Part shown: one piece after another, positions 28,484 through 53,402 of the stretch | Layout of the letters: every line of letters starts with the position of its first letter | Numbering within the stretch: position 1 is the stretch's first letter | From: Hymenobacter jejuensis | GTDB taxonomy: Bacteria > Bacteroidota > Bacteroidia > Cytophagales > Hymenobacteraceae | Assembly (NCBI RefSeq): GCF_006337165.1 | Contig: NZ_CP040896.1 | Coordinates: 3,906,001-3,970,000, forward strand | Length of the DNA: 64,000 nucleotides | Direction: 5' to 3' | The notes under the pieces: model-generated | Told to the model about the DNA's origin: nothing | The model's input: the letters and a program-made list of their open reading frames with translations, nothing else | Database searches by the model: none | Made by a program: the position numbers and the translations under genes

Positions 28484-30757
28484 TTACAGCGTTACGTTGC
28501 CCGTCAGGCGAATATCGCGGGAGGAACTGCCGACCAGCACGTCGAACTTGCCCGGCTCCAGTACCCACTGCTTTTTGCCTTCGTCATAATACTGGAACGC
28601 ATTGGTGTCCAGCGTCATCGTCACCGTTTTGGATTCGCCGGGTTTTAGGAATACTTTCTGAAAGGCCTTCAATTCCTTCTCCGGGCGCTTGACGGCGGCT
28701 TGCTCGTCCTTCACATACACCTGCACCACTTCGGCGCCGGACGTTTTGCCGTTGTTGGTCACGGTCAGCTTTACGGTGGCGTTTTTGGTGCCCGGCGTTA
28801 CACTTAAACCGCTGTATTTGAAGGTGGTGTAGCTCAAGCCGTGGCCGAAGGCAAATTGCGGCGCGACTTTGTAGGTGTCGAAGTAGCGGTAGCCCACGAA
28901 AATGTCGTCTTTGTAAGTCTGCTTCAGCGGGTTACCGGGGGTGCTGGGGTATTCGCCCAGTTTCATGGCAGGCGAGTCTTCCAGCTTCACGGGGAAGGTG
29001 AAGGGCAGCTTGCCCGACGGGTTTACATCACCGAACAGGATGTGTGCCAGGGCGTTGCCGCCTTCCATGCCGGGATACCACGCCTCCACAATGCCCTTGG
29101 CCTGCCCGGCCCACGCCGACACGTCAATCGGGCCACCGCCCAGCAGCACGACCACCGTATTGGGGTTGGCAGCCAGCACGGCCTGAATCAGTTCGTCTTG
29201 GCCGAACGGCATCTTCATGTCGGGCTTGTCGAACCCTTCGGCGTCGTAGGCATTGTCGCCCCATTTGCTGTAGTCGTAGCCGTGGGTCGAGCCGCCCACG
29301 ATGATGGCCACGTCGGCGGCTTTGGCAGCCGCAACGGCTTGGGCAATCATCTGTGGGTCAGCCTTTTGGTTGCGTGCAATTTTGTAGCCCTGAGCATAGG
29401 TGATGTTTGCCTGGCTGCCTAATTCCGTTTTGAGACCCTGCAACGGCGTGATTTCGTACTTGGCCTTCAGCTGCGAGCTGCCGCCGCCCATGGAATTTTC
29501 GCGGGTGGCGTTTTCGCCGATCACGGCAATAGTTTTCACCGTCTTTTTGAGGGGCAGAATGCCGTCGTTTTTGAGCAGCACAATGCCTTCTTCGGCCACT
29601 TTCAAGGCGGTGGCCTGGTGCTCTTTGGTGTTGTAAGCGCCGGGCTTGCGCTTGGCGCCGTCCAGCATATTGGTGGCGTACATCACCCGCAGAATGCGGC
29701 GCACTTTGTCGTCTACCAAGGGCACCAGCTTCGGGTCTTTCTTAACGGCGTCCAGGGCGGCATCGGCGAGGTAAAAGCGGTCGTAAAGCGACCGGTTGGC
29801 GGAAGGCCCGCCCGTGGCTGCGCTCTGGTCTACGTTGCCGTACATCAAGGACAGGTCGGTGCCCATTTCCAGATCGGTGCCGTTGCGCAGGGCATTCATG
29901 GTGTTATGCACGGATCCCCAGTCGCTTATAACCAGGCCTTTGAAACCCCATTCGCCCTTCAGAATGTCATTCATCAGGTAAGCGTTCTCGGTGGCATAGG
30001 TACCGCGAAACTTGTTGTACGAGCCCATCAGCGTGTACACGCCCGCTTCCTGCACGGCGGCTTTGAAGCCTGGCAGGTAGATTTCGCGCAGCGCCCGCTC
30101 GCTCATGTCCACGTCGATGTCGTTGCGGTGCTCTTCCTGGTTGTTGGCCGCGTAATGCTTCACGCACGCCGAAACGCCCTGATCCTGAACGCCTTTGATG
30201 TAGCCGACTACCATCTTCGAAATGAGGTAGGGGTCTTCGCTCAGGTACTCGAAGTTGCGCCCGTTCAACGGCGCGCGCACGATGTTGATGCCCGGCCCCA
30301 AAATAATGTCTTTGCCCCGGAAAGCGGCCTCACTGCCCAGTACCGTGCCGTAAGCGTAGCCCAACTCCGGATTCCAGGTGGAGGCCAGCGTGTTGTTGGT
30401 GGGCAGGTAGGTGCCGGCGTCGTTGGCGTCTTTGACGCCCTTCCAGTCGCGTCCCTGCTCGGGGCGCACGCCGTGCGGGCCGTCGGAAGTCATGATTTCG
30501 GGAATGCCCAGGCGCTTGATGCCGCCGGCCGCGAAAGCCGAGTTGGCATGCAGCATCGCGATCTTTTCTTCCAGCGTCATCTTCTTGATGAGCGCATCGA
30601 TTTTGGCGTCGTTGGCCGTGAGCGCAGCCTGTTTGTTTTGCGAAGCAGGAGCTTTCGTTGGTACCGCAGGCTTGCTTTGTGCCGTGCAAAAGCTCAGGGT
30701 CGCGTAAAAGAAGGTGGTGCCCAGCAAGGCTGCCAAGCGAGGGGTGGGAAGAAACAT
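28484..30757 (-). CDS. GH3 beta-glucosidase (BglX-like), exported
   Basis: 757 residues from the ATG at 30757, with a signal peptide (MFLPTPRLAALLGTTFF, cleavage near FCTAQ) and an Ala/Lys-rich linker. N-terminal TIM barrel with SDGPHGVR, GRNFEYLSEDP, KHYAANNQE, and the nucleophile Asp279 in VISDWGS. Second alpha/beta sandwich with the acid-base region DAEGFDKPDMKMP and GGGPIDVSAW, then HGLSYTTF and a fibronectin type III-like end. GH3 enzymes of this shape remove terminal glucose from beta-linked oligosaccharides; some act on xylosides. It is one of two GH3 genes in the locus; this one follows GH30 after 53 nt. Confidence 0.92.
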   Translation of the reverse strand: MFLPTPRLAALLGTTFFYATLSFCTAQSKPAVPTKAPASQNKQAALTANDAKIDALIKKMTLEEKIAMLHANSAFAAGGIKRLGIPEIMTSDGPHGVRPEQGRDWKGVKDANDAGTYLPTNNTLASTWNPELGYAYGTVLGSEAAFRGKDIILGPGINIVRAPLNGRNFEYLSEDPYLISKMVVGYIKGVQDQGVSACVKHYAANNQEEHRNDIDVDMSERALREIYLPGFKAAVQEAGVYTLMGSYNKFRGTYATENAYLMNDILKGEWGFKGLVISDWGSVHNTMNALRNGTDLEMGTDLSLMYGNVDQSAATGGPSANRSLYDRFYLADAALDAVKKDPKLVPLVDDKVRRILRVMYATNMLDGAKRKPGAYNTKEHQATALKVAEEGIVLLKNDGILPLKKTVKTIAVIGENATRENSMGGGSSQLKAKYEITPLQGLKTELGSQANITYAQGYKIARNQKADPQMIAQAVAAAKAADVAIIVGGSTHGYDYSKWGDNAYDAEGFDKPDMKMPFGQDELIQAVLAANPNTVVVLLGGGPIDVSAWAGQAKGIVEAWYPGMEGGNALAHILFGDVNPSGKLPFTFPVKLEDSPAMKLGEYPSTPGNPLKQTYKDDIFVGYRYFDTYKVAPQFAFGHGLSYTTFKYSGLSVTPGTKNATVKLTVTNNGKTSGAEVVQVYVKDEQAAVKRPEKELKAFQKVFLKPGESKTVTMTLDTNAFQYYDEGKKQWVLEPGKFDVLVGSSSRDIRLTGNVTL

Positions 30758-30806
30758 TCGGATTGGGTTAGAATGAATAGAGGGCCACATCAAAGTTGCC
30801 TTCGAT

Positions 30807-30832
30807 GTAATTATTTGATTATCAATGTGTTA
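30807..30832. repeat. Dispersed AT-rich palindrome, copy 7 (overlaps a coding end)
   Basis: TAATTATTTGATTATCAATGTGTTA with the exact core at 30815-30825. The last codons and the stop codon of the GH30 gene lie inside it (LIIK-stop). Confidence 0.7.
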
Positions 30833-32295
30833 AACGAGTCGGGTTTGAGAGTGGGCGCCAGCGTCTGCTTGCCTACTTTCAGCCGCAGGACGCGGTCTTG
30901 GTTGCTGTCGTTTTGCGCCACGACTACCACGCTTTTGTCGAGGTTCTGAAAGGCCAGCAAGTTGGTGAAAGCGCCGCTGGTAGTCAGGCGTTTGGCACCG
31001 GGCTTCACGTAGTGGCTCAGGTGCTTGAGCAGGTAATATTCGTAGTTGAACTGGTAGGTTTTAGCGGCTTCATCGACGGTGACCAGCGAGTTTTGGCTCC
31101 ACCCCCACCGGCTGACGCCGCCTTTTTTCAGCGAGATATTCCAGTACATGTAGGCATTGGCACCGCTGCTGAGGTAATGCTTCATCAGCGACCACGTGTA
31201 CACGCAGTACTTCCAGTCGTTTTTGCCGTCGCCGCATTCTTGCTCCGACTGGTACAGCGTCAGGTTGGGGTAGCGCTCGTGGATGCCGGCAATGGCCCCT
31301 TTGCCCGCCCACTGAAAACCAACACCCTTGATGTATTTGCCGCTGCGCGGATCGTGCAAAACAGTGTCAACCAAGGCTTCTTTGGCGCGCTCCATGGTCC
31401 CGAAAAACACATCGACCTTTCGCTGCTGCATCTGCGGCCCCAGGAAGCCCACGAAGCGCGCCAACCCCGTGGCCGTCCAGGTGCAGCTCGGAAACACCTG
31501 GGCCGAGTTGAATTCGTTTTGGGGCATCACCATGCTCACCCCAATGCCTTTTTTCTGATACGCTTCGATGAACTTAGCAAAGTATAATGCGTAGGCAGTG
31601 AAGTACTTATCTTCCTGTACGAACATATTAGTGCCTTCCTTGCCGGCTTGTTCCGGCTTGAGGCCGTTGTCGGCCAGGGTGGGCATCATCTGGCGGTACT
31701 CGGGTTTTACCTCGGCAGCCGCATAGTGCTTATTATACTTCATCCACGTCGGCGGGCTCCAGGGCGAAGCCCACACCTTCAGCTTTGGGTTGTACTGCTG
31801 CGCGCTTTTGATGAACGGAATCAGCGTTTGCTCGTCGTTGGCGATGCTGAAATGTTCGAGGGCAAAATCGCCGGGTGTTTCGTCGTACGAATACCAGTCG
31901 CGCGAAAAGTCGTTGGCCCCAATGGGCATTCGGCAAATGGTGAAGTTGGCGCCCACGCCCGGTGCAAACAGCTCACGCACAATGTGTTCGCGGTCGGCTT
32001 TGCTAAGCGCACTCAGCGACGTCCAGCCCAGCTCATTGAAGCAGGCGCCAAATCCGTCGATGGTCTGCAAGGGCTGCGCAACGTTGATCTCGGCATCGGT
32101 AGGGCCGGTGGCCGCCGCGGTTTGCAGTCCTTTCTGCTCTACCCAACTTGCTGTGGGCGTAGTGGTTACCCATTCCACGCGCGTTTGGGCCATGGCCGCA
32201 GTATTTAGCAGTACAGCCGCGCCAGCTACCACTGCCATTTTCAGAAGGTGCGCGGGCGCGGAATTACATCTCACGAACTCTCGGGAGCGGGTCAT
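30811..32295 (-). CDS. GH30 family glycoside hydrolase, exported
   Basis: 494 residues from the ATG at 32295; signal peptide around HLLKMAVVAGAAVLLNTAAMAQ. Family GH30 retaining enzyme (beta-1,6-glucanase, beta-glucosidase, xylanase or glucosylceramidase depending on subfamily). Catalytic residues: acid/base Glu261 in MPQNEFNS and nucleophile Glu351 in YQSEQECGD. Also typical are TIDGFGACFNELGW at the start of the barrel and KVWASPWSPPTWMKYN. The C-terminal beta-sandwich ends with FNTLIIK. The overall pattern is nearest to subfamilies acting on beta-glucose linkages, but the exact subfamily cannot be fixed by eye. Third enzyme of the locus; the esterase gene lies 59 nt upstream. Confidence 0.88.
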   Translation of the reverse strand: MTRSREFVRCNSAPAHLLKMAVVAGAAVLLNTAAMAQTRVEWVTTTPTASWVEQKGLQTAAATGPTDAEINVAQPLQTIDGFGACFNELGWTSLSALSKADREHIVRELFAPGVGANFTICRMPIGANDFSRDWYSYDETPGDFALEHFSIANDEQTLIPFIKSAQQYNPKLKVWASPWSPPTWMKYNKHYAAAEVKPEYRQMMPTLADNGLKPEQAGKEGTNMFVQEDKYFTAYALYFAKFIEAYQKKGIGVSMVMPQNEFNSAQVFPSCTWTATGLARFVGFLGPQMQQRKVDVFFGTMERAKEALVDTVLHDPRSGKYIKGVGFQWAGKGAIAGIHERYPNLTLYQSEQECGDGKNDWKYCVYTWSLMKHYLSSGANAYMYWNISLKKGGVSRWGWSQNSLVTVDEAAKTYQFNYEYYLLKHLSHYVKPGAKRLTTSGAFTNLLAFQNLDKSVVVVAQNDSNQDRVLRLKVGKQTLAPTLKPDSFNTLIIK

Positions 32296-32354
32296 GTAAC
32301 GAGCGGGTTGACGGTCAGAAAAAGAAAGCTGGGGCACTGGACCTCGTTAATGGC

Positions 32355-33998
32355 CTATTTTGTAACTAATTGATCCAGAAACAGATAGCGGGCGCGGTTT
32401 GGCTCTTGCTCAGCGCGAGGCGTCACATCGAGGCGCATCACCTGGGCGTCGGTGCCGGCTTTGGTAGCGGGCCAGTTGGGCAGCCCGGCACCATTGGGGT
32501 TTCCAGATTTGATGAAGTTGGCAAAGTAGCTCTGCATCGCTTCCGACACTTTCTGGTCTTCGGGCGTCCAGGCGTACACTTTATTGGTCGAGAGGTTGCC
32601 CAAGGCGTATTCGATCTCGGCCGAGTGCACAGCTCCGCGGGCAGGCGGCGCCTTAGGAGCCGATTCGGGTTGTTTGACCACGCCGCCCGCTAAGCCAGCC
32701 GTAGCATTGCCCATTTCGGGCGTCATGGCTGGGCGGGGCCGGGCATAGAGGTAGCGGTACACTGGCTGGCCACCCGTTTGGGCTTGCATATCGGCCCATT
32801 TCCAGGTGCTGTAAGCAATGAAGCGGTCGCCGGCCAGGTCAGTAGCTGCTTGTTCGGCCTCTTGCGCCGTGGTGCTGGGGTACAGCTTCAGGACTTCGGC
32901 AGCGCGCTCACCGTACAGCTTTTGTACGGCTTTAGTGAAGTTTTCAGGAGTCGGCTGATCGGGGCCAAACAGTGCCTGGAAAGACATTTCCTGCGAATTC
33001 CAGCCCACCAGCAGCGGCACGCGCGCCTGCCGACCCGCCTCAAACGTGGCCGTAGGCTTTTCCGTGAAAAAGTAGCCGTCAAGAGTAGGAGCGAAGCGCT
33101 GGGTTCCGGGCTTGCCCGTTGCTTCCAGCAATTGCTGGGCGGGCAGTGCACGTAGTGCCGCCAACGAATTGGCGCCTAAGCTGGTAGCGAACGCTACGCC
33201 GCTTTTCTCAACTTCGGCCAAGGGCAAAGGTCCGAAGCCGGTGTTGAGCATCGAGCCGCTTTCGCCGATGGCGCGGGCAAACAGGCTTTTCGACAGGGGC
33301 GAAGCCATCTGGGCGCTCACCGACATCGAGCCAGCCGATTCGCCGGCAATGGTCACCTTTTTGGGGTCGCCGCCGAAAGCCGCGATGTTTTGCTGCACCC
33401 AACGCAACGCCGCGCTTTGGTCCAGAAAACCGTAGTTGCCAGACGCGTGGTGCGGCGATTCCTTGCTTAGTTCGGGGTGGGCCATAAACCCAAATACGCC
33501 GAGCCGGTAATTGACCGTTACGGCCACAATGCCGCGTCGGGCCATGCTTTCGCCGTCGTAGCGCGGCTCGGAGCCGTCGCCGGCCACAAAGCCGCCGCCG
33601 TAGAAATACACCAGCACGGGGAGTTTTTCCTGAGCGGTTTTGGCTGGCGTCCAGACGTTTAGGTAAAGGCAATCCTCGCTCACGCCGTTGGAGCGAAAGT
33701 TCATGTCGCCAAACAAGGGGAGCTGCATGGCCCGCGGTCCAAACTGCTTGGCTGGCCGCACGTTCGTCCAGCTTTTAACCGGCTGCGGCTCCCGCCACCG
33801 CAAATCTCCCACGGGCGGCGCGGCGAACGGAACGCCCTTAAATTCCCGAATGCCGCTGGCGGCGGTGGTGCCTTCCAGCACCCCATTGGCTGTTTTTACT
33901 TGGTTGATAGTCAGAGATTTGCTGGGTGTATTTTTCGTTTGGGCTGCCGCGGGCACTAGCTGTACAGCCAAAAGCGCTAGGATCAAGTAGAATTTCAT
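32355..33998 (-). CDS. Type-B carboxylesterase, exported
   Basis: 547 residues, ATG at 33998, signal peptide MKFYLILALLAVQLVPAAAQ. Alpha/beta hydrolase of the para-nitrobenzyl esterase/cholinesterase type: RWREPQPV, the oxyanion GGGF in VYFYGGGFVAG, nucleophile Ser221 in GESAGSMS, with QNIAAFGGDP just before. The acid and His of the triad fall near EIEYALGN towards the C-terminus. In sugar loci such enzymes remove acetyl or other ester groups from polysaccharides, though the true substrate is unknown. It sits 24 nt after GH3 and is read in the same direction, so co-transcription is very likely. Confidence 0.9.
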   Translation of the reverse strand: MKFYLILALLAVQLVPAAAQTKNTPSKSLTINQVKTANGVLEGTTAASGIREFKGVPFAAPPVGDLRWREPQPVKSWTNVRPAKQFGPRAMQLPLFGDMNFRSNGVSEDCLYLNVWTPAKTAQEKLPVLVYFYGGGFVAGDGSEPRYDGESMARRGIVAVTVNYRLGVFGFMAHPELSKESPHHASGNYGFLDQSAALRWVQQNIAAFGGDPKKVTIAGESAGSMSVSAQMASPLSKSLFARAIGESGSMLNTGFGPLPLAEVEKSGVAFATSLGANSLAALRALPAQQLLEATGKPGTQRFAPTLDGYFFTEKPTATFEAGRQARVPLLVGWNSQEMSFQALFGPDQPTPENFTKAVQKLYGERAAEVLKLYPSTTAQEAEQAATDLAGDRFIAYSTWKWADMQAQTGGQPVYRYLYARPRPAMTPEMGNATAGLAGGVVKQPESAPKAPPARGAVHSAEIEYALGNLSTNKVYAWTPEDQKVSEAMQSYFANFIKSGNPNGAGLPNWPATKAGTDAQVMRLDVTPRAEQEPNRARYLFLDQLVTK

Positions 33999-34022: not shown

Positions 34023-36431
34023 TTATTTTTGAGAGAGTTTCATTTCGGTGATTGGCGCCTGCGGGGCCAGCAGTTTGTGGGCTTTTTCGGCTACCAGCGC
34101 CTTGGGCACTGCAAATGAAGCCGTCTGCTTGATATTCAGCGAAGAGGCGCCCACTTTCACCTTGTACGTACCCGCATCGGCCACCCAACTCGAGGTAGCC
34201 GTATCGAAAGACGCCAGGTCGGCAGTAGTCAGGGAAAAGGTAAGTGTTTGTGATTGAGATGGTTGCAAAAGACCGGTTTTGGCAAATCCTTTGAGCTCGC
34301 TTTCCGGCTTTTCGAGCTTGCCGGAAGGAGCCGTAAGATAGAGCTGCACGACCTCTTTGCCCGCCACCGGGCCGTTGTTGGTTACGGTAACAGTGGCCGT
34401 CATCTTGCCGGCAAAAGTCGGGGCGCTCAACTTCAGGTTGCTGTAAGCAAATGTGGTGTAGCTCAGGCCATAGCCAAATTCGTAGGCGGGCTTCACCTGG
34501 AACGTGTTGTAGTAGCGGTAGCCGACGTAAATGCCTTCTTCGTAGGTATTTTCGGAGGGCGCGCCCGTGAGCGAATTGCCGCTTGCTTGCCCGGTGCTGG
34601 CCAATAAGCGGCCCGGAAAGTCTTTGCTGTAAGGCACATCATCATACTTCGCCGGGAAGGTTGTGGCAAGCTTGCCCGAAGGCGCCACGGTGCCGCGCAG
34701 CACGTCGGCCACGGCGTTGCCGCCTTCCTGGCCGGGCTGCCATGCCAGTAAAATGGCGTCGGCTTGGTCGCGCCAACTGGCTACTTCGATTACGCCGCCT
34801 ACGTTAAGCACCACCACCATTTTTTTGCCTTGGGCATGAAAGGCCGTGGCTACTTGCTTGAGCAACGCCTGTTCGGCCGCCGAGAGCGTAAAGTCATTTT
34901 CCACCTTGCGGTCGCCGCCTTCGCCAGCGCTGCGGCCAATAGTAACCAAGGCTACATCGGCAGCCTGGGACTGCTGGGTAAGCAGGGAAGCATCCACGGG
35001 CATCTCGGCAATGACGGGCGCGGGGTCCAGTAACCCTTTGGTTTTGGGGAGTTTAGCTTTTTCGCCCTTTATATATTGCCCGTACGCCTGCGTTAGCGGC
35101 GCGTTCACGATGAGGCCGGCGTTGGTAAGTCCTTGCGCTATCGAGATGGTGTAAGCGCGGTTGACGTCGCCGCTGCCCGTGCCGCCGGCAATGAGGTTGT
35201 AAGAGGTATTGCCAAACAACGCCACTTTTCGGCCTGCGGCTAGCGGCAGCGTTTTGCCTTCGTTGCGCAACAACACCATGCTTTCGGCAGCGGCTTGGCG
35301 GGCCACGGCGGCATCAGCTTTTAGGTTGGGCTGACTCGTGTATTTAAGGCCCTTAAACGTAGGCGATTGTAACACCAGCGTCAGCACGCGCGCTACGTTG
35401 GCATCAATCTGAGCAGTAGTTAGTTGGCCGCTTTTTAGGGCAGCTAATACTGCCTGGGTTTGGGCCGTAGTGCCGGGCATGAGCAGGTCGTTGCCGGCTT
35501 GTAGCTGCGCAACGGGGTTTTTGCCGCCGTACCAGTCGGTCATGACCAAGCCCTTGAAGCCCCACTCGCCGCGCAGCAGCGTCGTGAGCAGATCGCGGCT
35601 TTGGGAAGTGTACGTGCCGTTGACGAGGTTGTAAGACGACATAACCGTCCAGGGTTGCGCCTTGCGAACCACAATCTGGAAGCCTTTGAGGTAGATTTCC
35701 CGCAGGGCGCGCTCGCTCACCTTGGAGTTGAGCTGCATGCGGTTGAACTCTTGGTTGTTGACGGCAAAGTGCTTGACGGACGTGCCCACCCCGTTGGATT
35801 CGATGCCGTTGACCATCGCCGCTGCGATGTTGCCAGCCACGACGGGGTCTTCGGAATAATACTCGAAGTTGCGGCCACCCAACGGGTTGCGATGAATGTT
35901 CATGCCCGGCGCCAGCAGCACGTCGATGCCGAAGTCACGTACTTCGCTGCCAAATGCTACGCCGACTTTGCGCACGAGCGTCGTGTCCCAGGAAGATGCC
36001 AGCAGCGTTGCCACCGGAAAAGCTGTGGCGTAATAGGTTTTGGTGCTGTCGCCGCCCCGAATGGGATCGATGCGCACGCCCGCGGGCCCGTCGGATAAGG
36101 TCAGCGACGGAATGCCCAGCCGCGCAATGGCGTGCGTGCGGCCTGCCGCGCCGGGTATTTTTTCGGGTACTTTCCGGTCCTCGGGGTCGGAAGGCGGCAG
36201 AATGCCCTCCGGGAAGCCCGCAGGGTAAAAACCCATCCCGACCACCAGTTTTACCTTCTCTTCGGGCGTGAGAGCCGCGATTACTTCCTTGAGGGGGGCT
36301 TTGCCTAATTGAGGCGCGGTCTGGGCTTGTGCTGAGGCCAAAAAACTGCTGCACAACAGGCTACACGTGGCAAAGGTGCGGAAACGGGAGGCGTTTGAAG
36401 CGGCAAGCAAAAGGGAAATTTTTATTTTCAT
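34023..36431 (-). CDS. GH3 beta-glucosidase, exported, second copy
   Basis: 802 residues, ATG at 36431; signal peptide about 1-37 (CSLLCSSFLASAQAQ). N-terminal barrel: SDGPAGVRID, GRNFEYYSEDP, KHFAVNNQEFNRM and the nucleophile Asp299 in VMTDWYGG. The sandwich domain has GRSAGEGGDRKVENDF, which carries the acid/base Glu, followed by VLNVGGVIEV and WQPGQEGGNAVADVL. The FnIII-like domain begins near YGLSYTTF. A C-terminal tail of about 40 residues (KALVAEKAHKLLAP) is longer than usual. It differs enough from the other GH3 to expect a different specificity. It is the first enzyme gene after SusD, with a strong hairpin in the 143-nt gap. Confidence 0.92.
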   Translation of the reverse strand: MKIKISLLLAASNASRFRTFATCSLLCSSFLASAQAQTAPQLGKAPLKEVIAALTPEEKVKLVVGMGFYPAGFPEGILPPSDPEDRKVPEKIPGAAGRTHAIARLGIPSLTLSDGPAGVRIDPIRGGDSTKTYYATAFPVATLLASSWDTTLVRKVGVAFGSEVRDFGIDVLLAPGMNIHRNPLGGRNFEYYSEDPVVAGNIAAAMVNGIESNGVGTSVKHFAVNNQEFNRMQLNSKVSERALREIYLKGFQIVVRKAQPWTVMSSYNLVNGTYTSQSRDLLTTLLRGEWGFKGLVMTDWYGGKNPVAQLQAGNDLLMPGTTAQTQAVLAALKSGQLTTAQIDANVARVLTLVLQSPTFKGLKYTSQPNLKADAAVARQAAAESMVLLRNEGKTLPLAAGRKVALFGNTSYNLIAGGTGSGDVNRAYTISIAQGLTNAGLIVNAPLTQAYGQYIKGEKAKLPKTKGLLDPAPVIAEMPVDASLLTQQSQAADVALVTIGRSAGEGGDRKVENDFTLSAAEQALLKQVATAFHAQGKKMVVVLNVGGVIEVASWRDQADAILLAWQPGQEGGNAVADVLRGTVAPSGKLATTFPAKYDDVPYSKDFPGRLLASTGQASGNSLTGAPSENTYEEGIYVGYRYYNTFQVKPAYEFGYGLSYTTFAYSNLKLSAPTFAGKMTATVTVTNNGPVAGKEVVQLYLTAPSGKLEKPESELKGFAKTGLLQPSQSQTLTFSLTTADLASFDTATSSWVADAGTYKVKVGASSLNIKQTASFAVPKALVAEKAHKLLAPQAPITEMKLSQK

Positions 36432-36574: not shown

Positions 36575-38074
36575 TTAATAACCAGGGTTTTGTGTGAGAT
36601 TAGGATTGACGTTGAGTTCGGTTTGCGGGATGGGCAGGAGGTTGTTGAACTCCTGTACGCCGGTCTTGCCTTTGGCCTTCATTGTCGAAACCAGCGTGCC
36701 CGTGCGCTTTAGGTCGTACCAGCGGTCCATCTCGAAGGCGAGCTCGTAGCGGCGCTCCCGCAACACGGCATCTTTGAAGCTTGCCGCAGAAGTTATCGCT
36801 AAGTCCTTGGCCGAGGGCGTATTGATGGGCAGGCCGAAAGCCCGCCGACGTACTTTGTTGATGGCTTCGAGGCCTTCCGCAGTTGGTCCCACGGCCTCCG
36901 CCAAGATCAGGTACATCTCGGCCAAGCGGAGCACCGGCACGTTCAAGGGCGAATCCCAGTTGTTGACGTTCACGGTGCCCACAAAGAACTTGCGCACGTT
37001 GAAGCCAAAGGGGTCGCCGGGCAAGCTCGCCGGCTGAATCTGGCCGGCCGGGTATACATCGCCGGGCACCCACACGGTAGCTCGCTTGCGCAGGTCGCCG
37101 GGCTCGTAGCCATCCACAAACTCTTTCTCTGGTACATTGAAGCCGTATCCGCCGGAAGATACCACGTAAGGGCTGCCAAAGAAGCGGGCGCCCCAAAACT
37201 CGTTTATGGTTGCGCCAGGGCCATCCTGCGAATAGTTGCTCAGGCCGTTTTTGAACTGAACTTCAAAGAGCGACTCCTGCCCATTCTCGTTCTCTACCTT
37301 GAAGTTGTCGGCATAATTTGCCCACATGGTCTTACCCGAACCGCTGATTACGGCGCGGGCCTGCGTGGCCGCATTCGCCATATTGCCTTGCGTGAGGTAC
37401 ACCTTGGCCAGCAAGGCCGTTGCCGACCACTTGGTAGCCCGGCCCACGTCGTCGCCGGTGTAAGAGGCCGGCAACTTCGTGATGGCATCCTGAAGGTCGG
37501 TTATGATTTGCGTGTACACTTGGGCGGCCGGCGTACGCGTGATGTTAGAAACTTCGGCAGCCGTTTGGGCGGGCGTCAGCACCAAGGGCACGTCGCCGAA
37601 GCCGCGCACCAGGTAGAAGTAATACAGAGCCCGCAGAAAGGCCGCCTCACCCAGACACCGCGTTTTGAGGGTAGCCGACATTTCGATAGCTGGCACGCGC
37701 GCCAGCACTTGGTTGGCCTGGCCAACGCCCAGATAGGCGCGCTGCCAGTGGGTGCTGGTGAGGGGATTGGTCGTCGGAATAGAGTAATTATCAAGCTGTT
37801 GGAACTCGATGCCGTCGGAAGCTCCGCCACCGCCCGTGTTGGAGTTGTCGGACATGATGTCGCCGATGCCCCACAGCGAGTAGTTAAACATACCGTACTG
37901 GCTCAGCTGCGAGTAAGCGGCTGTAGTCGCCTGAATGGCATCGGTTTCGGTCTTGTAAAACGTTTCGGTCGTTACGGCGTTTCGCGGCTGCAGGCTGAGG
38001 TAATCTTTCCCGCATCCCGCGAGTAGCCCGAGGGTCAGCACCGAGGCTGCAAGCGTTTTATTCTTTATAAACAT
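36575..38074 (-). CDS. susD: SusD/RagB outer-membrane glycan-binding lipoprotein
   Basis: 499 residues from the ATG at 38074, with lipoprotein signal MFIKNKTLAASVLTLGLLAGC (lipid Cys about residue 21). Surface lipoprotein that forms the lid of the TonB-dependent SusC pore and captures oligosaccharides. Typical features: LSLQPRNAVTTETFYKTETD near the start, helical TPR-like units (LGEAAFLRALYYFYLVRGFGD), and the C-terminal RRRAFGLPINTP, LRERRYELAFEMDRWYDLKRTG and NLLPIPQTELNVNPNLTQNPGY. It follows SusC after 69 nt. Confidence 0.96.
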   Translation of the reverse strand: MFIKNKTLAASVLTLGLLAGCGKDYLSLQPRNAVTTETFYKTETDAIQATTAAYSQLSQYGMFNYSLWGIGDIMSDNSNTGGGGASDGIEFQQLDNYSIPTTNPLTSTHWQRAYLGVGQANQVLARVPAIEMSATLKTRCLGEAAFLRALYYFYLVRGFGDVPLVLTPAQTAAEVSNITRTPAAQVYTQIITDLQDAITKLPASYTGDDVGRATKWSATALLAKVYLTQGNMANAATQARAVISGSGKTMWANYADNFKVENENGQESLFEVQFKNGLSNYSQDGPGATINEFWGARFFGSPYVVSSGGYGFNVPEKEFVDGYEPGDLRKRATVWVPGDVYPAGQIQPASLPGDPFGFNVRKFFVGTVNVNNWDSPLNVPVLRLAEMYLILAEAVGPTAEGLEAINKVRRRAFGLPINTPSAKDLAITSAASFKDAVLRERRYELAFEMDRWYDLKRTGTLVSTMKAKGKTGVQEFNNLLPIPQTELNVNPNLTQNPGY

Positions 38075-38143
38075 CGTAGTAGTTTTTACAGGGGTGGGCG
38101 TCGCGCCGCTGGCTACGTGGCCTAGGCGCATCGCTTGGATTGA

Positions 38144-41100
38144 TTAAAAGCCAATGTTGACACCTGCCAAGAAGACGCGCGACTGCGGGTAAATGCCACG
38201 GTCGACGCCAAGGCTGCCGCCTTGGTTACCCAGCTCCGGATCGAAGCCTTTGTATTTGGTAATCGTCAGCAAATTCTGGCTGGTGACATACACCCGAATG
38301 CGCTGCGCATGAACTCGGCCTAGCAGCGTGGTGGGCAACGTGTAGCCGAGGGTGAGCAACTTGATGCGCATGTAAGAGCCGTTTTCCACGTAGTGGCTCG
38401 AAACGCGCAGGTTGTTGTTGGGGTCGCCGGCTACGGCACGCGGTACGTAGTTGCTGGTGCCGGGGCCCGTCCAGCGATCCAGCGCGATGGTGCTGGCGTT
38501 GGAGGCACCGAACAAGCCGCCTTCCGTGTAGTAGCGGTTCAGGTTGTAAACGTCGTTGCCCTGCGAACCCTGTAAGAATATATTTAAATCTAAGCCTCTG
38601 AAGCTTAGAGTGTTATTGAGGCCATACGTGAAGTCCGGGTTCGGATTGCCGATGTAGGCCTGGTCCTGGGAATTGATGACGCCGTCGCCGTTTATGTCTT
38701 TGTATTTGATGTCGCCGGGGGCAGTGCCGGACTGCTGGTAGAAGCCCGTAGAAGAGCCAGCGTTCAACGCCGTCAGCTCTTCGGTCGTCTGGATGATGCC
38801 ATCGGCCACGTAGCCGTAGAACGAGCCAAATGGGATACCCGCCGCGTAGCGCACCAAGTAGTTGTTGGCCCGAATGCCTTGCCCGAAGTAGGGCCGGCCA
38901 GCTCCCAGCGACGTTACCTTGTTGCGGTAGAGCGAAAAGTTCAACGTAGTCGTCCAGTTGAGGCCGTTGTCGCTCACCAGGTTGTTGGTGGTAATGGCCA
39001 GGTCAATACCGCGGTTGCTCGAGGACGCCGCGTTGGTATTGATGCTCTCGCTGGTACCCGATACGTAAGACACCGGCACGGCGGCAATCAGGTTGGGCGA
39101 GGTACGCTTGTACAAGTCTACCGAGGCCGACACGCGGTTCTGCCACAAACCCAAGTCAATGCCGATGTTGTATTGCTCGTTATTTTCCCACTGCAAGTCA
39201 GGGTTTTGCAGGCGTGTGGGGGCGCCGCCGATCACCTGATTCTGGCTGCCCGTACCAAATACGTAACCGGTGCCGGGCACACCATTATTGGAAAGCGCGG
39301 AGGAGTTGATAGTAGCCAGAAAGGCGAACGAGCCGGCATTGAGCGGGTTACCTACTTTGCCATAACCGGCCCTGATCTTCAGGTTGCTGATGGAGGAGTA
39401 GCTCTTCAGGAAATCTTCTTCGCTCAGGCGCCAGCCGGCCGATATACCGGGGAAGAAGCCGAACTGGTTGCCGGGCGCAAACGCCGAAGAACCATCGTAG
39501 CGAGCCGTGGCCGAGAACAGGTATTTGCCGGCAAATTCGTAGTTGATGCGGCCAAAATAGCTGGCCAGCCGGCTGCGGCTGTTGTTGCCGCCGTTGTTAA
39601 TCTGGGCGTTGATTGGCCCGCGGTCAATTATTTGCAGGTCGTTGCGGCTGTAGCCTACGCGGGTAGCAGTCAAGTAGAAATTGTCGAATTGCTGCGATGA
39701 TTGGCCCAGCAGGAAAGTAAACTGGTGCTTATTGCCAATTATCTTGTCGTAGGTAGCCGTGTTCTCGATCAGGTAGCTGGGGCTGTAGTTGCTGCTGCTG
39801 CTGGCCGACGACTGAGAAGCCGGATACTTTGACGAGCCAACGATCGAGGGAAAGAACTGATCTTGTTGCAGAAACTGCAAATCTGCCCCGATGTTGGTCC
39901 GGAAGCGCAAGCCAGTAAGCGGCTCCAGCTCGGCGTAAAACGTGGAAGTCGCCCGGTTGCGGTTATTCTTGATTATGGGACGTAGCGCGGCCGTTACGGG
40001 GTTTTCTTCGCCGTAGTTATCGAGGCTGGAAAACTCGTAGAAACTGCCGTCGGGGTTGCGGGCGGGCGCCACCGGCGGGGCCTGCACGGCGAGCTGAATA
40101 ACGCCGCTGAACTCGTTGTTTTCGTTGTTGAGCGGGCGCTCGTCTTGGTGCGTCAGCGCGAGCGTGTTACCGATTTTCAGAATTTTGCTGAGCTGCACTT
40201 CCCCGTTAGCCCGCAGCGTAAAGCGCTGAAAGTTAGAATTGATGATGGTACCATCTTGCTGAAAGTAGCCCGCACTAACGGCGTAGCGGGCCTTCTCGCT
40301 GCCACCCGTGGCGGAGATGGCGTAGTTCTGAATCTTGGCGGGTCGGAAAATCTCATCCAGCCAGTTGGTGCCTTTTCCCAGTGACGCCGGATCAGCATAC
40401 TTCGGGATAATGGCCAGGCCGCCCGCGGTGCGCGCCTCGTTGTTAAGCTGCGCAAATTGCGTGGCATTGAGCATCGGAATCTGCCGCCAAACGTTTTGAG
40501 TACCCACGTACGCGTCGAGATTAATATTGGCCGTGCCCGCTTTGCCGCGCTTGGTGGTGATCAGTACCACGCCGTTGGCAGCCCGCACGCCGTAGATGGC
40601 CGTGGCGGAGGCATCTTTCAGCACGTCGATGCTTTCAATGTCGTTGGGGTTGATGGTGCTGAGCTCCGTGCCGGTTGCGTTGCCGTTGCCGTCTACCGCT
40701 GTCGGGAGCGGAAAGCCGTCCACCACATAAAGCGGGCTATTGTTGCCGGCGGAGGTAATGCCCCGCACCCGCACCGACGTACCCCCGGCGCCGCCCGGCG
40801 CCCCCGAGTTCGACACGATTTGCACGCCAGCCGCCCGGCCTTGCAGGGCTTGTGCGGCATCAGCAACCGGCTGAGCGGCAATTTCCTTGGCCGATACGGA
40901 AGCCACAGAACCGGTTACGCTCGTCCGCTCCTGAGTGCCGTAACCAACTACCACCACTTCTTTCAAGGCCTGCGTGTCTTCGCTCAGCGTAACGTTGAAC
41001 GATGTCGAGGCGCCAGTCACCGGGACTTCGCGGCGGGTGTAGCCTACGTAGCTGAATACCAGCGTACTCCCTTCGGGCACCTCCAGGCTGAAATTGCCGC

Positions 41101-41347
41101 TGGCATCGGTGCTGGTACCTTGCGAGCTGCCTTTCACCACCACCGTGACGCCCGGCAGGCCTTCGCCATTACTCTGAGTGACGCGCCCTGATACGGGAAC
41201 GTTTGCGGTTTGGAACGGCCCAACCTCCCGTGAAGGAGCGTTCGGCAATGGCGTAGCCGCCGCCGATTGTACAAACGTTGGCGTACTGCCCGCGGCGAGC
41301 AGCACTGCACTCCGCAGCAGCAGGTTTCTGTAAGAATGTGAAAGCAT
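38144..41347 (-). CDS. susC: SusC/RagA TonB-dependent outer-membrane transporter
   Basis: 1067 residues from the ATG at 41347; signal peptide about 1-35. Imports oligosaccharides across the outer membrane, powered by TonB. N-terminal carboxypeptidase-regulatory-like domain (GRVTQSNGEGLPGVTVVVKG, SYVGYTRREV), then a TonB box region (EVVVVGYGTQERTSVTGSVA), a plug with GVRAANGVVLITTKRGK, and a 22-strand barrel with the SusC C-terminal signature ending RVFLAGVNIGF. The family is about 1000 residues, so this is complete. First gene of the leftward locus; a candidate -7 box is 130 nt upstream. It is the marker gene of the polysaccharide utilisation locus. Confidence 0.96.
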   Translation of the reverse strand: MLSHSYRNLLLRSAVLLAAGSTPTFVQSAAATPLPNAPSREVGPFQTANVPVSGRVTQSNGEGLPGVTVVVKGSSQGTSTDASGNFSLEVPEGSTLVFSYVGYTRREVPVTGASTSFNVTLSEDTQALKEVVVVGYGTQERTSVTGSVASVSAKEIAAQPVADAAQALQGRAAGVQIVSNSGAPGGAGGTSVRVRGITSAGNNSPLYVVDGFPLPTAVDGNGNATGTELSTINPNDIESIDVLKDASATAIYGVRAANGVVLITTKRGKAGTANINLDAYVGTQNVWRQIPMLNATQFAQLNNEARTAGGLAIIPKYADPASLGKGTNWLDEIFRPAKIQNYAISATGGSEKARYAVSAGYFQQDGTIINSNFQRFTLRANGEVQLSKILKIGNTLALTHQDERPLNNENNEFSGVIQLAVQAPPVAPARNPDGSFYEFSSLDNYGEENPVTAALRPIIKNNRNRATSTFYAELEPLTGLRFRTNIGADLQFLQQDQFFPSIVGSSKYPASQSSASSSSNYSPSYLIENTATYDKIIGNKHQFTFLLGQSSQQFDNFYLTATRVGYSRNDLQIIDRGPINAQINNGGNNSRSRLASYFGRINYEFAGKYLFSATARYDGSSAFAPGNQFGFFPGISAGWRLSEEDFLKSYSSISNLKIRAGYGKVGNPLNAGSFAFLATINSSALSNNGVPGTGYVFGTGSQNQVIGGAPTRLQNPDLQWENNEQYNIGIDLGLWQNRVSASVDLYKRTSPNLIAAVPVSYVSGTSESINTNAASSSNRGIDLAITTNNLVSDNGLNWTTTLNFSLYRNKVTSLGAGRPYFGQGIRANNYLVRYAAGIPFGSFYGYVADGIIQTTEELTALNAGSSTGFYQQSGTAPGDIKYKDINGDGVINSQDQAYIGNPNPDFTYGLNNTLSFRGLDLNIFLQGSQGNDVYNLNRYYTEGGLFGASNASTIALDRWTGPGTSNYVPRAVAGDPNNNLRVSSHYVENGSYMRIKLLTLGYTLPTTLLGRVHAQRIRVYVTSQNLLTITKYKGFDPELGNQGGSLGVDRGIYPQSRVFLAGVNIGF

Positions 41348-41475
41348 AGAGGTGAGGTTATAAGTGGCTAATTTTTGAGTGAATGGATGCTGATGTATGC
41401 GCAAACCGAATCTTGAATAAAGCGTAGTCCGATAGACTTAAGTGCATGATCCAAGGCTTCGTTAAAAACTCATCT

Positions 41476-41483: not shown

Positions 41484-41872
41484 TAAGTGATTGGTTATAA
41501 GTATGTTATGATATGTTTTCGCCTCAACAATTGTTGCGAAAACATGCTTTGGCAGCAGGCATAGCAAGCGGATAAGCAATAGGCATAGGGACCCCGCGTG
41601 CAACAGGCAATGCGGACGAGGTGGGAGAAAAGCTGCTGGTAATTTGTGGCGAGGCAGCGGAGCGTCAGTTACAATCGGGTGTGCTTTGCAGCAGGAGCGG
41701 AGCGGCTCTTAGCAGGGGTACTTGTGCGTTTCAAGAGCCAGTGATGCTGGTCTGGAAGCGGTTTGCTAAGGGCGTCTGTTAAGAAGATCGTAAGCGGAAT
41801 CGATTTCGGGCAAAAAGAAATTGCAGATTCGAGCTGCAAGTCAAGTTATTTTTGGAATATCGACAGGATAAA

Positions 41873-41906
41873 TGTAAATATATTTTTCTAATACGTACAT
41901 TTTACA
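41873..41906. promoter_or_regulatory. Candidate operator of the NrtR-like regulator
   Basis: TGTAAA and TTTACA separated by 22 nt of AT-rich sequence, 20-53 nt upstream of the regulator ATG. Could be an autoregulatory site; no second copy was found before susC. Confidence 0.25.
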
Positions 41907-41925
41907 CAATAATTTTTTTGGCTCT

Positions 41926-42714
41926 ATGAATACCCGCCAAGAGGTCCTGGATTTTGTGAAGAACGGCCACACCCGTTTTCTGCCGCACCTCTCCATCGAC
42001 TGCGTAATTTTCGGCTACCATGCGCATCAGCTGAAAATTCTGCTGATCCGGCATCACGGGCACGAAAAATGGAGCTTGCCGGGCGGCTACATCGCCCGCG
42101 ACGAAACGCTTACGCAGGCGGCACACCGCATTCTGGCCGAAAAAACGCAAATCACGGACCTGTTTCTGCAACAGTTCTATGTGTTTGGCGACAGCGTGGT
42201 GCGCATGAGCCGAATCGAAACGCAGCAGACGCACAACACCACTTTTGCCAAAGTAGGCGTTACCCTTGGCGATAATCACTGGCTATCGGAGCGGACGTTG
42301 TCCATTGGCTACTATGCCTTGGTCGATTACCTGGATGTGGTAGTAACGCCTGAGTTTCTGGTAGATGGGTTCTGCTGGTTGGAAATCAAAGAGATTCCGC
42401 CGCTCGAGTATGACCACAACGAAATCATCGCCAAAGCCCTAGCCACGCTACGCTCGCAGATTTACCAGCAGCCCATCGGCTACAGTCTGCTGCCCGAGAA
42501 GTTTACGCTGCCGGAAATACACGCGCTCTACGAAACTATTCTGGGCAAGCAGTTTGACCGCCGCAACTTCCGCAAAAAGCTGCTTACGCTCGGCCTGATC
42601 CGGCAGCTGGACGAGCAAAAACGCATCGGTCCGCACCGTTCCCCGTTTCTGTATGAGTTTGATTTGGAGAACTATCGCAAAGCCTTGGAAGAAGGCTCGG
42701 TACTGGCTTTTTAG
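41926..42714 (+). CDS. Nudix-related transcriptional regulator, NrtR/AraR type
   Basis: 262 residues, ATG at 41926. An N-terminal Nudix-like domain (about 20-160: FGYHAHQLKILLIRHHGHEKWSLPGGY) is followed by a winged-helix domain (about 185-250: YSLLPEKFTLPEIHALYETI, FDRRNFRKKLLTLGLI). The Nudix box is degenerate: after GGYIARDE the sequence RILAEKTQI replaces REUxEExGU, losing the metal-binding Glu pair, so it should bind rather than hydrolyse its ligand. In Bacteroides, AraR of this family responds to arabinose; others sense ADP-ribose. Divergence from susC and the sugar setting make it the best candidate controller of this locus, probably sensing a pentose or a product of the keto-sugar pathway. 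Confidence 0.85.
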   Translation: MNTRQEVLDFVKNGHTRFLPHLSIDCVIFGYHAHQLKILLIRHHGHEKWSLPGGYIARDETLTQAAHRILAEKTQITDLFLQQFYVFGDSVVRMSRIETQQTHNTTFAKVGVTLGDNHWLSERTLSIGYYALVDYLDVVVTPEFLVDGFCWLEIKEIPPLEYDHNEIIAKALATLRSQIYQQPIGYSLLPEKFTLPEIHALYETILGKQFDRRNFRKKLLTLGLIRQLDEQKRIGPHRSPFLYEFDLENYRKALEEGSVLAF

Positions 42715-42843: not shown

Positions 42844-43728
42844 ATGACTTCCCGAAGATCCTTCTTGGCCTCGGCCGCCCTGCTCTCCGCCGGCTTGCTG
42901 GTGTCTCCTTCTTTGTTGGCTTACAACAAGCGCTACGTAGGTTTGCAGCTCTATACCGTGCGCGACGCCATGGAGAAAGACCCAGCCGGTACCTTAGCCA
43001 AACTGGCCAAAATCGGGTACAACTCGGTGGAAGGCGCCACCTACACGGGCAGCCAGAAATTCTATGGCATGACGCCCCAGGCATTTGCCGCGTTGCTCAA
43101 GCAAAACGGCCTGATCATGCCTAGCAGCCATTATCGGCTCGGCGAAGAGCAAATGAAGGGCGAGGCTGTGCAGGGCACTATTCTGCACGGCTGGGACAAG
43201 GCCGTGGATGACGCCGCCGCGGCCGGTGTGAAGTACATGGTGTGCGCGTATTTATCGGAAGCCGAGCGGGGCAACCTGGAGCACTACAAGTACATCGCCG
43301 AGCAACTCAACAAAGCGGGCGAACGGTGCCAGAAAGCCGGCATCCAGTTGTGCTACCACAACCACGATTTCGAATTCAAAGCCCAAGACGGCAAGCTGCC
43401 GTATGACTTGCTGCTCACCGGTACCGATAAAAAGCTGGTGCAGATGGAATTAGACTTGTACTGGGTGACCAAAGCCGGCCACGACCCGCTGGCTCTGTTT
43501 AAGCAGCACCCCGGCCGCTTCCCGCTGTGGCACGTCAAAGACATGGATAAGACGCCGCAGAAAGCCTTCACGGAAGTGGGCAACGGCAGCATCGACTTCA
43601 AGAAGATATTTGCCCACGCCGACGAAGCCGGCCTGAAGTACTTCTTCGTGGAGCAGGACTCGACCCCCGGCTCACCCTTCGACAGCGTAACCAAAAGCAT
43701 CAACTACATCAAGAAGAACTTGGTGTAG
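42844..43728 (+). CDS. Tat-exported sugar phosphate isomerase/epimerase-like TIM barrel
   Basis: 294 residues, ATG at 42844. Tat signal (SRRSFLASAALLSAG), so it is exported although the family name implies a cytoplasmic sugar-phosphate enzyme. AP-endonuclease-2-type TIM barrel: VGLQLYTVRDAM, GYNSVEG, SSHYRL, YHNHDFEF with metal-binding His/Glu, MELDLYWV, WHVKDMD and FVEQD at the end. Metal-dependent isomerases or epimerases of free sugars share this pattern. Very similar to the gene at 44561-45433 on the other strand, probably by duplication. It is convergent with the DUF1080 gene (13 nt apart) and follows the regulator gene by 129 nt. Confidence 0.88.
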   Translation: MTSRRSFLASAALLSAGLLVSPSLLAYNKRYVGLQLYTVRDAMEKDPAGTLAKLAKIGYNSVEGATYTGSQKFYGMTPQAFAALLKQNGLIMPSSHYRLGEEQMKGEAVQGTILHGWDKAVDDAAAAGVKYMVCAYLSEAERGNLEHYKYIAEQLNKAGERCQKAGIQLCYHNHDFEFKAQDGKLPYDLLLTGTDKKLVQMELDLYWVTKAGHDPLALFKQHPGRFPLWHVKDMDKTPQKAFTEVGNGSIDFKKIFAHADEAGLKYFFVEQDSTPGSPFDSVTKSINYIKKNLV

Positions 43729-43741
43729 AAGCAGTTAAGCT

Positions 43742-44527
43742 CTATTGGCCCGCGGCCGGCAATTCGCGAACCCAGATGTTACGAAAACTGAGGGGTTCGC
43801 TTTTGTCGCCGTGGGCTTGCAGCTTAATCGGGGCAGGGCCGTGGCTTTGGTAAACGGGCTTGCCAATGTAAAGTGTTGGTCCTAAAAGAGTTGCGTTGTT
43901 CTCGACTAGTACCCCATTAAACAGCACCGTCACGCGGGCGGGTGTGGCCATGGCGCCATCGGCCGCAAACGTGGGGGCCGTCCAGATCACGTCGTAGGTT
44001 TGCCATTCGCCGGGCTTGCGGGTGGGGTTGGCCAGCGGAATCAGCTGCTTGTAAATGCTGCCCGCCATGCCGTTGACGTAGGTTTTGTTGTTATACGAAT
44101 CCAGAATCTGCAATTCGTACCCCAAGTCGCCTTTGCCGAGTGAGGCCAGAAACACGCCGCTGTTGCCTCGCGCCTGCGCCGTGCCGCTGATGTTGGCCGG
44201 CACGCGCCACTCTAGGTGCAGTTGGTAGTTGGTGAAGGAGCGCTTGGTTTCGATGTTGCCCGCGTCTTTTTTCACGGTCATTATGCCCTTGGCGACGGTC
44301 CATTTGGCGGGCGCCGTGCGGTCGTCGGTTGATACCCACTGGTCGAGGTTCTTCCCGTCGAACAGGATCAAGGCGTCGGAAGGCGCGTCGCTGCTGGTTT
44401 TGCCTGGCGTAACTACTTTCGGAACGGGCTCCCACACCTCCGTGTCCTCGGGTTTACCAGTTTGTTGGGCGTGGGCGGCGCCGAAGCTGCCGGCCAGCAA
44501 TGCAGTAAGTACCAGGCGAAGTTTCAT
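43742..44527 (-). CDS. DUF1080 3-keto-glycoside hydrolase/lyase family protein
   Basis: 261 residues, ATG at 44527, signal peptide MKLRLVLTALLAGSFGAAHAQ. Single concanavalin-like beta-jellyroll domain of DUF1080: LFDGKNLDQWVS, YQLHLEWRVP, GNSGVFL, GYELQILDSYNN, GSIYKQLIPLANPTRKPGEWQTYDV, LFNGVLVENNA and IKLQAHGDKSEPLSFRNIWVREL. Members of this family have been shown to cleave 3-keto-disaccharides or 3-keto-glucosides by hydrolysis or elimination. All hallmarks are present, and it lies at the end of a cluster that also holds a candidate 3-dehydrogenase. The substrate is not known. It is the last gene of the leftward operon, 33 nt after the isomerase. Confidence 0.9.
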   Translation of the reverse strand: MKLRLVLTALLAGSFGAAHAQQTGKPEDTEVWEPVPKVVTPGKTSSDAPSDALILFDGKNLDQWVSTDDRTAPAKWTVAKGIMTVKKDAGNIETKRSFTNYQLHLEWRVPANISGTAQARGNSGVFLASLGKGDLGYELQILDSYNNKTYVNGMAGSIYKQLIPLANPTRKPGEWQTYDVIWTAPTFAADGAMATPARVTVLFNGVLVENNATLLGPTLYIGKPVYQSHGPAPIKLQAHGDKSEPLSFRNIWVRELPAAGQ

Positions 44528-44560
44528 GTGGGTGTTGGCTTGAGTCGGGGTTTGGGAGTA

Positions 44561-45433: not shown

Positions 45434-45488
45434 TAGGGGAATAATTTAATTAGATAAACAACTGATCAACAGATAAATGCACGATGCA

Positions 45489-46376: not shown

Positions 46377-46470
46377 GATGCAAGTAATTGATTGTTAAGA
46401 AGATACGAGTGGGCAGCCGTCGCACGCCACCCATGCGCAACTGCTGGCGACTGAAGACAGCGAGAGCCGA

Positions 46471-46944: not shown

Positions 46945-46956
46945 AAGATGGTAGTT

Positions 46957-48009: not shown

Positions 48010-48016
48010 AGGTAGA

Positions 48017-49168: not shown

Positions 49169-49192
49169 GTAGTGATGATGAGGTTCTTAGCC

Positions 49193-50443
<1,251 letters not shown>

Positions 50444-50493
50444 ACGGGATAGGGTTGGCGGGAGGGTAAAGATTTGTCGTTCAGGTAGTTGGC

Positions 50494-52881: not shown

Positions 52882-53402
52882 GATGTGCTAGTAAAGAATG
52901 AGTGGGATTTAGAGGACAATAAAAGCAGCAGGTCGGGTGTGAAAACGGGCAGGTAAGCAGAACGGCAGGCCAAGACTCGGCTATTGACAATAATAGAAAT
53001 AATTTATCATCAATAAATGATACTTTGAATAGAGCACCAGCGCTGAGTCGATAAGCCTTGAGGCATTTTTGCCTTTTTTAGAGTGTTTTGAATAAAATCA
53101 AAAATGACTCTGAATACCAGAATTCATTGATTCAAGGTTCCAGAAGCCCTTTCTCGCAAGTATCGGGCGCACGTCGGCCCAGCGATTGAGTGCGTAAAAA
53201 TTACGCAATAAAAATCTTGATTAGCGCCCAAAACCGCTTGTAAATGAGAAGCGCAAAGGAGAAGCTATTATTTACGGAGGCGTGAGAAAGCGCCTTGCTG
53301 TAATAAAGAGGATAGCCTCATGATGGTAAAATGCTGCGGTAGCTGTTGCCGAGGCCTACCTAAGAGTCTCTAATCTACATTGCGTAGATAGGAGCCAGCC
53401 AT

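Follow-up and report, generated by a model that had tools for sequence, protein, structure and literature searches.

In Bacteroides, the L-arabinose regulator BtAraR (BT0354) belongs to the NrtR family and is freed from DNA by L-arabinose (PMC4666351, available portion), and the xylose regulator XylR (BT0791) is a member of the same family (PMC3878776, PMC4666351, available portions). According to the available text of these papers, the AraR regulon includes SusC/D operons and Nudix-type control of SusC/D loci has already been published for AraR (PMC4666351, PMC3878776). A preliminary description of the locus studied here had presented a Nudix regulator at a SusC/D locus as a departure from the usual control, a view that gives way to the AraR precedent. 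BT3309 of the beta-1,6-glucan locus was considered as a further Nudix precedent and rejected as SusR-type, on the available parts of the sources (PMC5481569, PMC3878776). Loss of Nudix glutamates has been described for NrtR and AraR (PMC4666351, available portion), and NrtR of S. oneidensis (3gz5/3gz6) is an ADP-ribose regulator of NAD metabolism. The LacABC plus DUF1080 pathway acts on 3-ketoglycosides (PMC9007349); the available part of that paper names no regulator for it, and no published regulator of the pathway was found in literature lying mostly outside subscription journals. Given the AraR and XylR precedents, the regulator described below is not a new kind of system; it represents a new orthologous group whose predicted regulon differs from theirs. 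What is new is this orthologous group (XylR being compared by description only), its half-site, and its predicted coupling to 3-keto-sugar genes.

Regulator gene and its neighbourhood

The window, i.e., the whole stretch of 64,000 nucleotides that was analysed, covers positions 3906001-3970000 of the Hymenobacter jejuensis genome (5.09 Mb, single contig). Its relevant genes, with the basis of each assignment, are as follows.

28484..30793, minus strand: second GH3 (Pfam)
30811..32337, minus strand: GH30 glycoside hydrolase (Pfam; an NCBIfam endo-1,6-beta-glucanase model matched below its cut-off)
32355..33998, minus strand: carboxylesterase-family protein of the SusC/D locus (Pfam)
34023..36431, minus strand: GH3 glycoside hydrolase of the SusC/D locus (Pfam)
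36575..38131, minus strand: susD-like protein (Pfam)
38144..41404, minus strand: susC-like TonB-dependent receptor, likely ATG at 41347 (NCBIfam TIGR04056, synteny)
41926..42714, plus strand: NrtR/AraR-family regulator of 262 aa with a degenerate Nudix domain and a winged helix-turn-helix (Pfam, PDB relatives, fold)
42844..43728, plus strand: TIM-barrel sugar isomerase/epimerase-like gene, AP_endonuc_2 (Pfam, neighbours)
43742..44527, minus strand: 3-keto-disaccharide hydrolase family, PF06439/DUF1080 (Pfam)
44561-45433 and 45489-46376, minus strand: two TIM-barrel isomerase-like genes (Pfam)
46471-46944, minus strand: cytochrome c (Pfam)
46957-48063, minus strand: third TIM-barrel gene (Pfam)
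48017-49168, minus strand: GFO/IDH/MocA oxidoreductase (Pfam)
49193-50443, minus strand: Nuc_H_symport-type transporter (Pfam)
50585-51655, minus strand: Gluconate_2-dh3 subunit (Pfam)
51205-52881, minus strand: GMC oxidoreductase, head of the 3-keto cluster (Pfam)

The regulator matched NUDIX (2e-9), NrtR_WHD (1.7e-22) and AraR_C (2.8e-13) of Pfam, all over the cut-off, and its closest solved relative was BtAraR (5bs6, 2.1e-38). Its structure model (mean pLDDT 91) returned BtAraR at Foldseek rank 1 and S. oneidensis NrtR next. Pfam and Foldseek together identified the domain pair of the NrtR family, i.e., an N-terminal Nudix-like domain and a C-terminal NrtR/AraR winged helix, and the earlier assignment to an NrtR/AraR-type regulator with a degenerate Nudix domain was borne out by these matches. 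No other NrtR_WHD protein was found in the genome, and the regulator searched against it matched nothing besides itself at E≤0.001. Both the family membership and the single copy are directly supported by these searches.

The order of genes leftward from the regulator is susC, susD, GH3, esterase, GH30, GH3, GH42 and GH31, and the divergent orientation of susC and the regulator agreed with the preliminary description. On the other side, the cluster 43742-52881 looks like a 3-ketoglycoside cluster of the LacABC/DUF1080 type, in which we take LacABC to be the GMC, Gluconate_2-dh3 and cytochrome c proteins. It shares with the published pathway a GMC protein, Gluconate_2-dh3, cytochrome c, a PF06439 hydrolase, isomerases, an oxidoreductase and a transporter (PMC9007349, available portion). 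The Gluconate_2-dh3 ORF (356 aa) overlaps the GMC gene by 451 bp; relatives align to it from about residue 151 on, and its real start is thus probably downstream.

We compared 19 same-genus orthologs with 66-82% identity to the regulator. The first recognised divergent gene belonged to a polysaccharide utilisation locus (PUL) in all 19, being susC in 16, GH3 in two and an esterase in one. The AP_endonuc_2 isomerase-like gene starts 129 bp past the regulator end on the same strand, in agreement with the preliminary statement that the regulator precedes it; in the relatives the isomerase gene followed the regulator in 0/19. Relatives carry orthologs of this gene either within the 3-keto cluster or next to it. 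In 5/19 (G162, G163, G172, G148 and G181), no more than about 21 kb separated the GMC gene from the regulator, and contig ends may hide more.

In a wider survey, up to 8 kb on each side of the regulator was inspected at 80 loci of relatives, with 20 control stretches taken from 13 genomes of the family to which the window belongs. SusC matches were found near the regulator at 30/80 loci against 1/20 controls, glycoside hydrolases at 31/80 against 0/20, TIM-barrel proteins at 16/80 against 0/20 and ThuA at 13/80 against 0/20; some of these loci are cut by contig ends, eight repeat loci fetched earlier and about 20 are Mucilaginibacter-clade loci, and the control set is small and limited to a single family. 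ThuA, which is presumably part of 3-keto-sugar metabolism, occurred as a neighbour in both halves of the regulator tree. Of seven classes of the 3-keto type (ThuA, TIM, DUF1080, GFO, GMC, Gluconate_2-dh3, transporter), one or more were present at 29/80 loci against 1/20 controls, and DUF1080 taken alone showed no enrichment (1/80 against 1/20). In Mucilaginibacter loci (L192, L195, L199 and others) a related regulator and a glycoside hydrolase at about -2.5 kb point away from each other, with SusC/D after the hydrolase, and palindromes of the GTGT-N7-ACAC type lie at about -71. SusC/D loci with Nudix-type regulators appear to be common.

Degenerate Nudix box and candidate ligand pocket

The Nudix box of the regulator, GYIARDETLTQAAHRILAEKTQI, was read against GX5EX7REUXEEXGU. 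The Glu of 'RE' is replaced by Ile69 and the second Glu of 'EE' by Lys73, the impaired signature that marks the NrtR family, whereas Glu72 (the first of 'EE') and Glu60 (GX5E) are kept. The earlier claim that the box had lost its metal-binding glutamates holds for two of the three REUxEE glutamates and not for Glu72. The two lost positions are I/V/S/T and R/K in all rows of an alignment of 105 regulators, and pairwise alignments showed the same two glutamates replaced in BtAraR (RVLAEL) and S. oneidensis NrtR (RKLAEK). Judged from these alignments, the degenerate box is a hallmark of the family and no peculiarity of this protein. With BtAraR, the regulator has in common the domains, the fold and the degenerate box; with XylR, likened by description alone, it shares being a Nudix-type sugar regulator of Bacteroidota clustered with its sugar genes.

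Arg93, corresponding to the arabinose-binding Arg86 of BtAraR, was found in 105/105 rows, and His164, corresponding to arabinose-binding His131, in 94/105. The position of BtAraR Arg34 is His43 in the regulator and varies across the family, in a loop three residues shorter where the register is uncertain. Of the arabinose contacts Arg34/Arg86/His131 that characterise the AraR group, the regulator thus keeps the Arg86 and His131 positions but not Arg34. In addition, 29 residues separate Arg93 from Arg123, versus 4 between the equivalent points of BtAraR. Since Arg93 and His164 are kept and the Arg34 position is variable, we read this site as a sugar pocket with a different specificity.

It is scarcely credible that the Nudix domain has remained enzymatically active as a hydrolase, with the winged helix being incidental: two Nudix-box glutamates persist, but positions 69 and 73 are non-acidic in 105/105 rows, and conservation of the helix residues reaches 101 rows at position 213 and 105 at position 214. 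Orthology to Bacteroides AraR, with a response to L-arabinose, is also very unlikely. BtAraR is the nearest solved structure and the Arg86 and His131 positions are retained, but the Arg34 position is lost, the spacing is 29 instead of 4 residues, and araA lies about 208 kb off (genome 3739624), with no site reported before this arabinose gene at E≤10 when 150 of 1661 first-look candidates were scored. A conventional NrtR that senses ADP-ribose or NAD and controls NAD metabolism would have the same domain pair. The NCBIfam NtrR model was indeed matched (9.4e-30), but at 103.9 bits the match fell far short of the NF050029 equivalog cut-off of 400. Moreover, sugar genes are both the neighbours of the regulator and the genes with predicted sites, and such a role is highly improbable. 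Identity to S. oneidensis NrtR is 26%.

Predicted operator at the regulator gene

When the intergenic regions of the window and the 19 orthologs were aligned, a single strongly conserved block, AATRCGTNNATTNTACRCAAT, was seen just 5' of the regulator ATG, corresponding to the following feature.

41889..41911, no strand: predicted operator, 21-bp core AATACGTACATTTTACACAAT at 41890-41910, 15 bp before the regulator ATG

This predicted operator is a 21-bp semipalindrome of the form RCGT-N7-ACRC, and its block was kept at the same position in 18/19 same-genus orthologs and lost in G163. In the latter genome, a close relative (L032, upstream of 10888), the regulator ORF is intact, the operator has decayed and no susCD lies alongside; ORFs resembling GntP and gluconokinase in sequence are found just downstream of the regulator.

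A symmetric matrix built from 11 ortholog boxes, with the window boxes excluded, gave the regulator box a score of 33.0. A sequence-only covariance model (CM) of 31 sites, which included this box in training and excluded the site near the GMC gene, scored it at 20.5 bits (E 0.004). The CM search of the genome at E≤10 reported only the regulator box and 53189-53209, with 150 of 1661 first-look candidates scored. The conserved operator-like site and the presence of two such sites genome-wide are direct observations. The exact pattern ATTGCGTN7ACGCANT occurred once in the genome, at the regulator box, and with two mismatches it was hardly commoner than its reversed control (91 versus 78), while the bare core RCGT-N7-ACRC had 3 matches in the window, fewer than the 10.7 of shuffled sequence. 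The loose pattern and bare core being uninformative, the signal is carried by the full 21-bp site only.

The BtAraR crystal DNA likewise has a 21-bp semipalindrome of 4-7-4 layout, GTGT-N7-ACAC (PMC4666351, available portion). The systems are further alike in tandem sites and in the helix residues Arg180/Asn181 and differ in that the half-site here is mostly RCGT instead of GTGT, with Arg212 at the Lys179 position, in that Arg34 is not kept and the insertion is longer, in that the regulator here is divergent from its polysaccharide locus, and in that its predicted sites lie at 3-keto-sugar and GH genes, not arabinose genes. A tandem second site was found 38-44 bp from the main one in 17/28 orthologs and was absent at the window's regulator box (-5.3) and at the GMC site (-16.8).

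Several observations connect the operator with the regulator. In 38 genomes searched with the CM, a site at E≤0.3 was present in 18/19 same-genus genomes with the regulator and 1/19 without it (G053, E 0.26), a contrast with some circularity, since the training set of the model contained many regulator boxes. An operator-like palindrome occurred within 250 bp upstream of 80/104 regulators, against 9.2 expected from mononucleotide shuffles, in a scan of Bacteroidota and one Rhodothermota row that included regulators used earlier and in which the window's own box fell under the threshold. Furthermore, Arg at helix residue 212 paired with a half-site G in 138/162 half-sites, and Gln with C in 23/38. 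Residue 212 is the position of BtAraR Lys179, and the pairing agrees with the reported Lys179 contact to the half-site G (PMC4666351, available portion). The co-change of residue 212 and half-site was observed in one clade, which holds 13/13 Gln rows beside two Arg rows with GCGT/ACGT sites, and may thus reflect a single event. Across eight genomes of two other genera, 11/12 distinct sites (E≤0.2) were at regulator genes, most of these boxes being in training. Five weak extra sites (E 0.26-0.29 in G172, G189 and G053; E 0.03 in G029) were examined and lay at or inside genes without an evident link; their number is about what chance would give.

On the susC side, the proximal intergenic region contained no site (best score -3.5), no conserved element near susC was evident in the alignment of the window and 19 orthologs, and the predicted operator lies about 540 bp from the likely susC ATG, so control of susC would have to act from that distance. 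The proposal that the regulator is the local controller of the SusC locus is favoured by the divergent PUL gene in 19/19 relatives but not by any susC-proximal site. TAnnTTTG and TTG are the promoter consensus elements. One TAnnTTTG, TAGTTTTG, was found in the region between the regulator and susC (41483, minus strand, in the susC direction), with no consistent place in 19 relatives. About 30 bp upstream of it lies an inverted repeat, ATGTTTTCG-N15-CGAAAACAT, at 41513-41545 with the inner palindrome CAACAATTGTTG; this repeat was seen in the window only, among 20 intergenic regions, and is possibly the site of another regulator.

Second predicted site, 3-keto genes and proposed mechanism

The other site reported in the genome lies upstream of the GMC gene.

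53188..53210, no strand: second predicted operator, 21-bp core 53189-53209, 307 bp before the GMC gene

Its matrix score of 21.0 exceeded the next best in the window (10.1), the maximum of a 5-Mb Markov null (18.6) and all 2000 local nulls that matched the 931-bp GMC intergenic region in composition. The site figured in no training set, and its genome-wide E by the CM was a modest 0.07. The preliminary description had proposed a search for a shared operator, and a motif common to the regulator gene and the GMC upstream region was indeed found, about 90 bp outside the stretch 52882-53100 that had been suggested. A decayed second regulator beside the 53189 site was looked for and rejected (best match E 0.35).

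Among the 19 regulator-bearing genomes, non-regulator sites at E<0.06 occurred in G180, G178, G181 and G148. The second sites of G181 and G148, which were in no training set, scored 33.1 and 24.4 by the 11-box matrix. Each is placed some 47 bp upstream of a PF06439 hydrolase gene, after which come gluconokinase, present in G181 alone, and then GntP and the isomerase ortholog in both genomes. The 3-keto cluster adjoins this operon, directly convergent in G181 and past a SusC/D pair in G148, and the slot of the operon is held in the window by the regulator and isomerase. Taking the sites of the window, G181 and G148 together, a second site flanks the 3-keto cluster in 3/20 genomes. In G181 and G148, TAGATTTG lies 23-24 bp after a TTG inside the operator; this spacing and the position of the operator 15 bp from the ATG fit repression by promoter blocking. 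In G180 and G178, an operator pair is located 498 and 406 bp, respectively, before a GH3 gene orthologous to the second GH3 of the window (28484..30793), with scores of 27.8-34.8 by the 11-box matrix, the pairs being in the CM training but not in the matrix. No intact regulator gene accompanies these pairs, which suggests that the distant GH gene is a target. The pairs lie at L042:12888-12951 (G180) and L043:12829-12892 (G178); in L042 what resembles the beginning of a regulator, MYTEQEVLP, is cut off by a stop, as though the promoter of the regulator had been duplicated and had outlived its gene.

Alternatively, control by the regulator might extend no further than its own gene and the divergent polysaccharide locus, and the palindrome upstream of GMC would then be chance or the fossil of an earlier arrangement. 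The absence of a site in the 1.5 kb upstream of GMC in 16/16 scanned regulator-bearing relatives (30 GMC loci fetched; G148 likewise lacked one at threshold 12) speaks for this, as do the operators without an intact regulator gene beside them (L042, L043) and the lack of a -7-like element near the site, no TAnnTTTG being found in the GMC intergenic region. A site (17.9) was present at a single GMC ortholog (L100), from a genome without the regulator. Against it, the GMC-upstream site surpassed every local null and was the sole other genome site that the CM reported at E≤10, and second sites were found at 3-keto genes in two other genomes. We regard this narrower account as possible but doubtful. 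The link between the polysaccharide locus and the 3-keto cluster, as anticipated in the preliminary description, gains from the motif shared by the regulator and GMC genes, but is weakened by the missing susC-proximal site and by the relatives without a GMC site.

We consider it reasonably probable that the protein is a sugar-responsive, autoregulating repressor of the NrtR family with predicted sites at its own gene and at the GMC-headed 3-keto cluster, whose release would derepress the SusC/D-GH locus as well. A regulator dimer would bind the 21-bp RCGT-N7-ACRC immediately upstream of the regulator gene and also, in H. jejuensis, the other copy, in front of the 3-keto-glycoside cluster headed by GMC. 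Binding of a sugar in the dead Nudix pocket would alter the dimer and free the DNA, as L-arabinose does with BtAraR; this ligand may be a 3-keto sugar, gluconate or a product like gentiobiose. The release would derepress the regulator together with the isomerase gene behind it, which may be co-transcribed, and also the divergent SusC/D-GH locus and the 3-keto cluster. If this repressor model is true, polysaccharide uptake and 3-keto-sugar metabolism can run as one programme. Given a predicted regulator, candidate ligands and a 21-bp operator with two sites in this genome, the regulation of 3-ketoglycoside metabolism becomes directly testable. As a broader and speculative extension, a Bacteroidota-wide subgroup with dead Nudix domains might sense 3-keto sugars, or a product, for example gluconate, and couple periplasmic glycoside 3-oxidation to polysaccharide uptake. 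Its ancestral targets would be ThuA/isomerase-type genes, and SusC/D-GH loci would have been recruited in Hymenobacter and, separately, in Mucilaginibacter.

Past the GMC-upstream site, self-complementary stretches were noticed at 53690-53766 (77 bp, 93.5%) and 53403-53443 (41 bp, 83%), strong hairpins which are perhaps terminators.
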